DNA of 64,000 bases from Microbacterium gubbeenense DSM 15944 (GTDB lineage: Bacteria > Actinomycetota > Actinomycetes > Actinomycetales > Microbacteriaceae). A program made the position numbers and the translations under genes. The stretch lies in assembly GCF_000422745.1 (NCBI RefSeq), contig NZ_AUGQ01000001.1:124001-188000 (forward strand). The letters run 5' to 3'. Positions 1 through 2,664 of this stretch are shown in pieces (the stretch's first letter is position 1; each line of letters begins with the position of its first letter). The notes under the pieces were generated by a model. That model was not told where the DNA came from. It ran no database searches and saw only the letters and a program-made list of their open reading frames with translations.

Positions 1-114
1 GTACGCGTTGTCCTTGATCACGACGAGCACCTCGGCGGGATCCATGCGTTCGCGCACCGCCCGCACGTTCTGGCGCAGGCGGGCGAGGTCGACGCGGAGC
101 TCGGCGCGCATCAT
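1..114 (-). CDS. Alanine racemase-like protein, N-terminal part (runs off the window)
   Basis: Only the first 38 codons are in the window. They read as the start of a fold-type III PLP racemase: the line VVIKDNAY matches the strand that carries the PLP-binding lysine of alanine racemases (K-x-N-A-Y-G-H-G), so the lysine is present here, unlike in the gene upstream. Two ATG codons follow each other; the ATG at 114 gives an ATGA overlap with the stop of the upstream alr-like gene, so the two are translationally coupled and probably work together. Whether this copy has a full barrel and the C-terminal domain cannot be seen. Confidence 0.8.
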   Translation of the reverse strand, partial: MMRAELRVDLARLRQNVRAVRERMDPAEVLVVIKDNAY

Positions 115-779
115 GCGACCTCCTCCCGCGCAACCGAGAGCCCGACGACGGCGGCGAGCTCGAGCTCGGTCCAGCCGGTCGCGTCCGCCCAGGCCCGCAG
201 CAGATCCGGGCGCGCGGCGCCGAAGAACCGCGCCTCGTCGCGCGGGCCGACGTCGATCCCGCCGATGTCGACGACGCACACGTCCATCGCCACGCGGCCG
301 ATGATCGGTGCCTCGTCGTCGCCGAAGAGCACGACGGCCCGGGATCCGATCGCCCGCGCAACGCCCTGGGCGTATCCCCCGGACACGAGCGCGACGCGGG
401 TGTCCCGCTCGGCGCGGTGTCGGTATCCGTAGGAGACGCCGTCGCCGGCGCGGAGCGTCTTCACCTGCAGCACGGGCGCGGCGAGCGTCATCGCGGGCTC
501 GCCGTGACCGGCGAGTCCGAAGACGGCATCGAGGGGCAGCGCCGTGTCCGGCGCGGGCGCGAAGCCGAACGGATCCGCGCCCTCGTCGACGATCGCCGTC
601 GTGATCCCTGTCGCGCGAGCGGCTTCCGCGACGATCGGGGCGCCGTGACCGCAGGCATCGCGACGCAGATCGATCGCGGATCCGGGTGCCTCGCGCGCCG
701 CGCGGGCGATGTTCCGCTCGAGAGCGGAACGCGACACGCGCGTGCGCGGAATGCTCGTCCCCAGTATCGACTCACTCAT
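111..779 (-). CDS. Truncated alanine racemase paralogue lacking the PLP lysine
   Basis: 222 residues, against about 370 for a complete alanine racemase. Residues 1-60 match only the first strand and helix of the PLP barrel, and the segment equivalent to K-x-D-A-Y-G-H-G reads R-R-D-A-C-G-H-G, so the Schiff-base lysine is Arg and the following Tyr is Cys. About 150 residues of barrel are then missing. Residues from about 110 on are a good match to the alanine racemase C-terminal domain: VSYG keeps the second catalytic tyrosine and GRVAMD the substrate-side loop. It overlaps the downstream lysine-containing gene by ATGA. A -10 hexamer TAGTCT (792-787) ends 7 nt before the ATG, suggesting a leaderless mRNA. 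It cannot be a racemase alone; a partner or regulatory subunit is my inference. Confidence 0.8.
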   Translation of the reverse strand: MSESILGTSIPRTRVSRSALERNIARAAREAPGSAIDLRRDACGHGAPIVAEAARATGITTAIVDEGADPFGFAPAPDTALPLDAVFGLAGHGEPAMTLAAPVLQVKTLRAGDGVSYGYRHRAERDTRVALVSGGYAQGVARAIGSRAVVLFGDDEAPIIGRVAMDVCVVDIGGIDVGPRDEARFFGAARPDLLRAWADATGWTELELAAVVGLSVAREEVA

Positions 780-785
780 CCGCCC

Positions 786-792
786 TAGACTA
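786..792. promoter_or_regulatory. Overlapping divergent -10 elements
   Basis: The seven bases TAGACTA read as TAGACT on the + strand (786-791, serving the ATP-grasp gene with a leader of about 65 nt) and as TAGTCT on the - strand (792-787, 7 nt before the alr-like ATG). The two promoters should exclude one another. Confidence 0.5.
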
Positions 793-862
793 TGACGCGG
801 TCGCACGGTGCTTCTTCAGCGCGCCGCGCGATCCGTCCACTTACCGCCGACTCGGAGGATCC

Positions 863-1888
863 ATGACGTCGAATGGCCTCGCCCTCGGACCGAAGCTGCG
901 CTACCTCGCGCAGCGCGCCCGCCGCATCGATATCGGTGCGGTGATCGAACGCGCCAAGGAAGTCCGCCAGGAGCACGGTAAGCCGGTCCCGACCGTGCTC
1001 GCCGACATGCTCTGGCAGGCCGCCCGCAAGGACGTCGCGTTCCAGGACTACGTCGACTTCGACTTCGCCATCCTCACGCCCGAGGAGCGCGCCACCTTCA
1101 TGACGCACCCGGTCTCCGCCCAGCTCGCGCAGCAGTACTCGCAGCCCGCGGGCCGCCGGATCTTCGAGGACAAGATCGCGTTCAACGAGCGCTTCTCCGA
1201 GTTCCTGAACCGCGCTTGGCTGGTCGTCACCGACGACAACGCCGACGAGGTGCGGGAATTCGTCGAGCAGCAGGGCACGGTCATCGCCAAGGTTCCCGTC
1301 AGCCACATGGGCCTCGGCGTGCGTCGTTATCACGCCAAGGACGTCGCGGACTGGGGTGTTTTCCACCGCGGGCTGATCGATGCCGGCGAGATCCTGCTCG
1401 AAGAGGTCATCTCCCAGCACGCCGACCTGTCGGCCGTGTGCCCCGGAACCGTCAACACCACCCGGATCACGGCGTTCTACGACGGCAAGGACGTGCACAT
1501 CCTCGCGGTCGCGCAGAAGTTCGGCCGCGGCGAGGTCAGCGACCAGATGTCGTACGGCGGCTTCTACACGATGCTCGACCCCGACTCGGGCCATGCGATG
1601 AGCGCGGGATACGACTCGCACGCGAACGTGCACGAGAACCACCCCGACACGGGCTTCCGCATCGCCGACTTCCAGCTGCCCGGATTCGACGAGGCCGTCG
1701 CCCTCATCGACCGCGCCGCGCGCGTGGTTCCCGAGGTGCAGTACGCGGGCTGGGACGTCGTCGCGACCGAGAAGGGCCCGGTGCTCGTGGAGGGCAACTG
1801 GGGCGCCGGCGTGTACGAGAACAAGCCGAGCGTGTCGGGCATCCGAACGGGCCACAAGCCCCGCTACCGCGCCGCCATCGGCTTCTAA
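863..1888 (+). CDS. ATP-grasp protein of the sugar-transfer-associated type
   Basis: 341 residues. The C-terminal half is an ATP-grasp fold: a nucleotide-binding strand at VIAKVPVSHMGLGV, the hinge ILLEEVISQH, and the metal-binding end AGWDVVATEKGPVLVEGNWGAG, where Glu and Asn of VEGN should bind Mg. The pattern fits the family called sugar-transfer-associated ATP-grasp, whose members make amide-type bonds using carboxylates activated by ATP; the substrate of this one is unknown. The start at 863 follows GGAGG (855-859). Upstream ATG/GTG codons in frame have no ribosome site. It is divergent from the alr-like pair and convergent with the CofE-like gene, hence possibly part of one peptide-building locus. 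Confidence 0.75.
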   Translation: MTSNGLALGPKLRYLAQRARRIDIGAVIERAKEVRQEHGKPVPTVLADMLWQAARKDVAFQDYVDFDFAILTPEERATFMTHPVSAQLAQQYSQPAGRRIFEDKIAFNERFSEFLNRAWLVVTDDNADEVREFVEQQGTVIAKVPVSHMGLGVRRYHAKDVADWGVFHRGLIDAGEILLEEVISQHADLSAVCPGTVNTTRITAFYDGKDVHILAVAQKFGRGEVSDQMSYGGFYTMLDPDSGHAMSAGYDSHANVHENHPDTGFRIADFQLPGFDEAVALIDRAARVVPEVQYAGWDVVATEKGPVLVEGNWGAGVYENKPSVSGIRTGHKPRYRAAIGF

Positions 1889-1898
1889 CCCCACCGAA

Positions 1899-1958
1899 CC
1901 TTCATTTCTGGCACATTTCTGCGCGGATTTGCGCGCGGAAATGTGCCAGAAATGAAGG
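1899..1958. terminator. Long perfect inverted repeat between convergent genes
   Basis: A perfect 21-bp inverted repeat (1899-1919 with 1938-1958, beginning CCTTCATTTCTGGC) encloses a further GCGCG/CGCGC stem with a 6-nt loop after one T-G wobble. It lies between the converging ATP-grasp and CofE-like stops. There is no T-run, so it may act as a bidirectional terminator by structure alone, or as a stable RNA end; the stem is AT-richer than its surroundings. Confidence 0.7.
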
Positions 1959-1968
1959 GTTAGGGTGG

Positions 1969-2664
1969 TCAGGCCGCGCGGCGGATGATGCCCATCGGGG
2001 TCGACTGGTGGCCCTGGCCGAGCGGGTTGTCCTTGAGGATCCGCACCAGCTGACGTTCGCTGGCCTTGTCGATCGTCGAGCCCAGGATGTTGCCGCCGAT
2101 GTCGTTGATGTCGACGACCGCGACTTCGCAGCCGACGAGCTTCTTCACGTCGGCCGCCACCTCGTGCGGGCGCTCCGGGCCGAGCACGACGGCGTCGTTG
2201 TACGGCGGGATCGTTCCGGGCGTCGGCCCGTCGATCGCGCGCGCCTTCTCACCGGCGATGCGGTAGAAGTCGCCGCGGCGTCCGAACAGCTTCGTCACGG
2301 CGGAGACGGCCGCGGCGAACAGGATCCGCAGCGTTCCGACCTCCTTCAGCGCGAACTCCATCGTCTCGGGAATGCCGAGGCCGATGCCGTACGCCGTCTT
2401 GGTGACGTAGCGCGACAGGAAGACCGCAAGCCGCCGGGGGTGGATGTCGCTCATCATGTACGACCGGCCCTGCATGATCGCCACGATCTTCTCCGTGACG
2501 AACAGGATGTCACCCTGCTGGGTCTTGCCGACCGCATACTCGCGGATGATCTCGTCGAGCGTGTCGCCCGGCATGACCACCCGCGTGCGCAGCGGGATGC
2601 GGAGGAAGTCGGTTCCATCGACGGAGACCTCGAGGGCCTTGCCGTCGTTCGCTTCCGAGCTCAC
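1969..2664 (-). CDS. CofE-like (coenzyme F420-0:L-glutamate ligase family) protein
   Basis: 231 residues, a single F420-ligase domain; the C-terminal nitroreductase half of the mycobacterial FbiB is absent. The pattern [18 protein letters not shown] and the C-terminal [11 protein letters not shown] match the CofE family, which adds glutamate to a carboxylate using GTP. The segment [14 protein letters not shown] differs from what I recall of true F420 enzymes, so the substrate could be another acid. The GTG start overlaps the TGA stop of the sigma factor gene (GTGA), so it is translated with sigA. A cofD homologue is 50 kb away, so a role in F420 is possible; the alr-like and ATP-grasp neighbours suggest a cell-wall or peptide role instead. 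Confidence 0.7.

Follow-up and report, generated by a model that had tools for sequence, protein, structure and literature searches.

A probable two-part racemase of the alanine racemase fold encoded by paired genes in Microbacterium gubbeenense and its family

Shared active sites in alanine racemase and comparable enzymes

In the normal homodimer of alanine racemase (Alr), the lysine barrel of each chain is completed by the tyrosine C-domain of its fellow chain, which gives two active sites. In serine palmitoyltransferase (LCB1/LCB2) and in the deoxyhypusine synthase of trypanosomatids, duplicated homomers have become obligate heteromers in which one subunit lacks the catalytic lysine. Both are eukaryotic enzymes with folds unrelated to that of Alr, and we know of no fused forms or repeated splits of either within one bacterial family. 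In Alr, the residues that act together on one substrate, Lys39 and Tyr265′, come from different subunits (PMC3485190). In the B. stearothermophilus enzyme, Tyr354 is on the lysine side, where it binds the phosphate of PLP, and it matters for specificity (PMC3485190, PMC4517790). In the Alr-like enzymes Lyr and Bar this tyrosine is replaced by Thr or Ala and larger cationic substrates are used; in a docked model of Lyr, Thr354 contacts the side-chain nitrogen of D-Lys (PMC3485190).

The locus described here lies at the beginning of the window, the whole 64,000-nucleotide stretch of DNA that was analysed (G000:C1:124001-188000), which is part of a 3.0-Mb genome. We propose with good confidence that a small gene and the gene that follows it encode two unequal chains that form a PLP racemase of the Alr fold only together, as an obligate heterodimer. 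The pair resembles Alr (TIGR00492, fold type III PLP) in its homology over both parts and in drawing the same Lys and Tyr from two chains (PMC3485190). Unlike Alr, it consists of two genes with a half-site each, would have one site instead of two, and has Asp or Glu at 354. It shares with Lyr and Bar the lack of Tyr at 354, whereas these enzymes are homodimers of complete chains and have residues other than Asp or Glu at this position (PMC3485190). Our literature searches of open-licence PMC papers found no report of a split Alr.

The paired genes and their active-site residues

The small gene (111..779, minus strand) encodes 222 aa plus stop when the ATG at 779 is taken as the start; an alternative upstream GTG at 806 would give 231 aa. 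Pfam found in the protein a complete Ala_racemase_C domain (E 4.3e-28; residues 96-218, 126..494, minus strand); of Ala_racemase_N there was no more than a trace below the threshold (profile positions 1-60 of 220). Its segment DLRRDACGHG aligns with VVKADGYGHG of the canonical Alr of the same genome, with Arg39 (codon 663..665, minus strand) in place of the PLP lysine Lys39 and Cys at Tyr43. VSYG, GYAQG and GRVAMD are all intact, and by alignment Tyr117 (codon 429..431, minus strand) is the equivalent of the catalytic Tyr265′ and Met165 (codon 285..287, minus strand) that of Met312′. The score against TIGR00492 was 86.7 bits, below the curated cut-off of 168. Across 204 residues, the predicted fold (mean pLDDT 90.5) superposed on M. 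tuberculosis Alr (6scz) at 1.9 Å (chain range 12-382, Z 23.0), with the two ends present and the barrel middle absent. The preliminary description had presented this gene as an Alr paralogue without the PLP lysine and without some 150 residues of the barrel, but with the second catalytic tyrosine in an intact C-terminal domain. The alignment, the domain search and the predicted fold agree with it on each point and place the missing residues in the centre of the barrel. The protein would thus bring the Tyr side of the site, without the PLP lysine and without the barrel middle.

The first 38 codons of the partner gene lie at 1..114 on the minus strand; the gene extends outside the window (G000:C1:123092-124114) and encodes 342 aa. 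The sequence ATGA at 111..114 (minus strand) joins the stop of the small gene with the start of the partner, for which the ATG at 114 was taken; a second ATG at 111 is possible too. Lys34 (codon 13..15, minus strand) aligns with the PLP lysine, so that the lysine-bearing, overlapping partner that had been suggested is indeed present and would bring the Lys side. Read past the window edge, the gene contains IKDNAYAQG, HLKIDTGLHRNG, WTHIAE and LVRVG, and the protein has the whole barrel. Its C-domain matches Pfam only from position 37 and includes neither SYG nor GRVAMD. The protein reached 123.4 bits against TIGR00492, again below 168, vs 288.2 for the canonical Alr of the genome. Because the C-domain is incomplete and SYG and GRVAMD are missing, the partner is not a normal full-length enzyme, and an ordinary Alr downstream, which would have spoken against the earlier proposal, is ruled out. 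The partner of M. testaceum (L102) was predicted at 95.6, with C. glutamicum Alr (2dy3) as the best match (TM 0.89). Both the small protein and the partner are confidently predicted to be of Alr type in fold.

The search covered 199 genomes of the same family from 85 genera, and 55 pairs from 26 genera were aligned with canonical Alr; the two-gene arrangement is conserved in relatives. Small gene and partner were told apart at each locus by the presence of Tyr265′, and exactly one gene had it, giving Tyr265′ in 55/55 small proteins and 0/55 partners. Lys39 showed the reverse, with 55/55 in partners and 0/55 in small proteins. The lysine-less gene was upstream and the lysine gene downstream, adjacent and in this one order, in all 55; they overlapped by four bases in 38/55 pairs and by one base in six. 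In the C-domain site of the small protein, Arg290′ and Met312′ were invariant (55/55 each), Arg309′ was found in 53/55, Tyr284′ was Tyr in 47 and Phe in eight, and position 313 was Asp in 48 and Asn in seven. In the barrel site of the partner, Tyr43 and Arg136 were invariant (55/55) and Lys129, His166 and Arg219 were each found in 54/55, the exceptions all being in one partner gene cut by a contig. The corresponding C-domain region of the partner aligned loosely and had an aromatic residue near 284 in 33/55 and Asp near 313 in 39/55. Reciprocal half-site loss in two co-inherited genes was thus found in 55/55 aligned pairs. The small proteins were 181-389 aa long (median 232), and eight exceeded 300 aa; therefore, loss of the lysine is possible with most of the chain retained.

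The same residue pattern was seen in four extra pairs and in seven from named or MAG genomes, one of which duplicates G184. Re-searching 11 genomes confirmed the pair by residues in Microbacterium sp. 69-10, Microbacterium sp. TPD7012 and M. testaceum StLB037 and in the MAGs BIN20, RYN_99, ACE_ACT10 and Ww38, and found only full-length Alrs in Cryobacterium sp. Y11, Microcella alkalica, MAG Ww36 and Arthrobacter sp. fls2-241. Some other pairs were left out of the 55. In G124 the small gene lies past the end of the contig, in G012 (L255) the contig stops within the partner, G123 and G038 gave coordinates only, and the pair of G015 (L313) is very divergent. A profile scan of the contigs of named genomes returned mostly canonical Alrs. 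In 99 genomes of the genus itself, counting matches only, at least three profile matches were found in 81, a count also seen in the checked pair genomes, two in three and one in 15. For 297 genomes of the order, 274 of which belong to other families, the matches listed include no short full-coverage match of the small type outside the family.

The small gene has lost the lysine and most of the barrel, as a decaying duplicate might. Across 17 genome pairs, Ka/Ks ranged from 0.11 to 0.48 in the small gene and from 0.11 to 0.32 in the partner, and both genes are under purifying selection. These values and the invariant or nearly invariant C-domain site residues in 55 proteins rule out a pseudogene, and with the confident predicted fold they leave decay a negligible probability. 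A second alternative is a regulatory role. Inactive paralogues that activate an enzyme occur elsewhere, for example the prozyme of trypanosome AdoMet decarboxylase, and the small protein might activate the partner in this way without giving it a catalytic residue. However, conservation in the small protein falls on its active-site face (Tyr265′, Tyr284′, Arg290′, Arg309′ and Met312′), whose residues the partner has lost, and we consider such a role very improbable. It is even harder to believe that the partner needs no second chain and catalyses a different reaction, perhaps as a PLP racemase made of the barrel only, beside an unrelated small protein. Single-domain fold type III PLP proteins are reported to exist, but the pairs are adjacent, in the same order in 55/55 and mostly overlapping, and the halves are fused in other genera.

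In the proposed heterodimer, one site would survive. The partner would supply the barrel, the PLP lysine, Arg136, His166, Arg219 and residue 354, and the small protein would supply Tyr265′, Tyr284′, Arg290′, Arg309′ and Met312′. The second site would be gone because the small protein lost the barrel and the partner lost Tyr and Met. The losses in each chain would then be of residues that only the dead site would use, and the retained residues would be those that the live site needs. The comparative evidence makes it very likely that the pair is an obligate heterodimer whose single active site is composed from both chains, and we infer with strong confidence that the two proteins form a complex and have racemase activity.

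Fused, split and tandem racemases in related genera

Fused or split racemase halves were also found in three genera, g21, g50 and g78 (3/3 genomes each). In g21 all Ala_racemase_C matches fall in one long open frame, which encodes a barrel module with the lysine and without Tyr265′ followed by a small-type module (VSYGY, GRxAMDQ; Ser/Thr for the lysine). This fusion of a barrel half and a small half (L252, L253 and L310 in G020, G100 and G161) is the sole Ala_racemase_C gene. In g50 one open frame combines a barrel module, a bare C-domain (VSYG or ISYG) and, by eye, an apparent TsaE; the frames (L314, L315 and L316 in G119, G049 and G174) are 745-789 aa long and read as a racemase barrel, a second bare C-domain and a TsaE-like part. 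In g78 the four Ala_racemase_C matches are all in split genes. Some form a pair like that of the window, and the others a barrel gene that lacks the Tyr, with a small gene after it. This second split racemase (L249, L250 and L251 in G140, G192 and G077) has Tyr354 and the reversed gene order, and there is no full-length alr. Position 354 is Tyr in the fused or split barrels of g21, g50 and g78, and in the tree these barrels cluster with canonical Alrs (support 99). Since these halves are the only Ala_racemase_C genes, the half-plus-half design can stand as the sole Alr homologue, and on the evidence of the sequences it does so in these three genera. The fused halves of g21 and g50 are indirect support for two chains that form one complex. 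The earlier suggestion of an obligate heterodimer or a split racemase is therefore strengthened both by the reciprocal loss of lysine and tyrosine in 55/55 pairs and by these fused or split halves, as far as sequences can tell.

A further candidate split gene, in G009 (L254), was judged by eye to be a canonical alr interrupted by a frameshift; the assembly is 86% complete, and the gene was not counted. The 0.9-Mb genome G015 (L313) has no Ala_racemase_C gene outside a divergent pair, in which the partner comes after the small gene and has, by eye, Asp354.

Some genomes of the family have a second full-length gene, Alr2, in tandem after alr. It was verified in 23 genomes of nine genera, with no genome and no genus in common with the 55 pairs. 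Alr2 has Asp or Glu at 354, falls in a common barrel clade with the partner, and is the second gene of Alr1-Alr2 as the partner follows the small gene. It differs from the partner in being full-length, with all catalytic residues checked being present, and in standing at a glmS-alr locus where inspected; Lys129 is replaced in Alr2 of one lineage. In that tandem lineage (L014, L016, L020, L023, L028, L092, L376-L378) the carbamylated Lys129 is lost from both genes, with Cys or Val in Alr1 and Gly, Asn or Thr in Alr2.

The barrel tree separates the partners and Alr2 together from canonical Alrs (support 100; 99 with full chains). The partners form two groups, each near a different Alr2 group, and a single partner clade was rejected (AU p 0.003, for a group named after the tree had been viewed). 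Of the six long small proteins, four cluster with the leading gene of one type of tandem (support 97), and the other two (L044, L045) lie apart on a very long branch. The C-domain alignment offers too few columns for its tree to settle the origin. The simplest story from these sequences is that a tandem alr1-alr2 became small gene and partner by reciprocal loss, perhaps twice; instead of a double loss of the Tyr, the full-length Alr2 may have regained it. Apparent stages of this change coexist, as full-length tandems, long lysine-less subunits, short subunits and fusions.

Neighbouring genes, residue 354 and the substrate

From 4037 downwards the window contains sigA (4037-2661, minus strand), an F420-ligase (CofE)-like gene (2664-1969, minus strand), an ATP-grasp gene (ORF 686-1888, plus strand), the small gene, and the partner, which runs off the window. 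The separate full-length canonical alr of the genome is on contig C2 and, by eye, adjoins glmS and tsa-type genes. In most pair loci inspected, the pair sits between sigA and a gyrB/parE-type gene. Ahead of it stand the CofE-like and ATP-grasp genes or, in their place, a MurT-like ligase and a GatD-like amidotransferase. The two neighbour sets occupy this slot (window 866-2664, L289-L304) as if they interchange. MurT/GatD amidate the D-Glu alpha-carboxyl in other bacteria. This group is the cross-linking point of B-type walls. In genomes without the pair, one set or the other stood between sigA and gyrB in 14/16 stretches (two of them weakly), and the remaining two stretches ended before sigA. 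Because the same neighbours also stand in genomes without the pair, a functional tie to MurT/GatD or to CofE/ATP-grasp is a positional hint only.

The partner of the window genome has Glu at 354. This position could be read in 53 partners, because those of G112 and G177 are cut off, and was Asp in 30 and Glu in 23; it is variable in the small proteins. The canonical Alr was checked in G038 and in 19 of the 55 pair genomes and had Tyr354 in all 20, as it did in 10/10 genomes with a single alr. Among 76 full-chain Alr loci from the scan of named genomes, mostly of other families, 354 was Tyr in 69, His in four and Asp in two, and was cut off in one. A full-length Alr of Arthrobacter sp. fls2-241-R2A-200 (L103), which stands beside a canonical Alr, has Asp354, Glu129 and Lys at both 290 and 309.

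An Asp or Glu that faces the substrate suggests a cationic side chain. In place of alanine, the substrate might therefore be a diamino acid of this charge for B-type peptidoglycan (ornithine, diaminobutyrate or lysine), a proposal that we make tentatively, as a possibility somewhat short of probable. According to PMC10757982, Microbacterium walls contain D-ornithine, L-lysine or diaminobutyrate, differing even inside clades, and those of the M. testaceum clade contain mostly D-ornithine; M. testaceum StLB037 carries the pair. The preliminary description had raised a substrate other than alanine; this part of it gains indirect support from Asp or Glu in 53/53 partners, and the pair of G015 speaks against it. 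That pair, with Asp354, is the only Ala_racemase_C gene of its genome and may therefore have to make D-Ala there.

The same heterodimer might then be a plain second alanine racemase, in which Asp or Glu at 354 is tolerated and the substrate is unchanged. The G015 pair and the sole fused or split racemases of g21, g50 and g78 are in line with this, since they suggest that a two-part design can serve as the only Alr homologue. However, those of g21, g50 and g78 retain Tyr354, the window genome and 20 checked pair genomes already have a canonical Alr with Tyr354, and Asp or Glu is retained at 354 in both the partner and Alr2. We regard a plain second alanine racemase as unlikely.

The heterodimeric racemase proposed here would be a textbook shared active site turned into an obligate heterodimer. 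In its widest form, our reading is that the family repeatedly made a two-part racemase, as separate genes or in a single fused chain and in some genomes as the sole Alr homologue, in up to five lineages (the two partner lineages, g21, g50 and g78, the independence of the last three depending on weakly supported branches), and that the Asp/Glu354 version is the missing D-diamino-acid racemase of the B2-type bridge; as a whole this is rather doubtful. For the Microbacterium testaceum clade the D-diamino acid would be the D-ornithine of the B2-type cell-wall bridge, which is conceivable and equally speculative. No assignment of the racemase step of B2-type peptidoglycan was found in the open-licence PMC papers searched, and if the substrate is a D-diamino acid, the pair would give this step a name. 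The step from homomer to obligate heteromer would become directly testable in this family, in a small enzyme with a simple assay.
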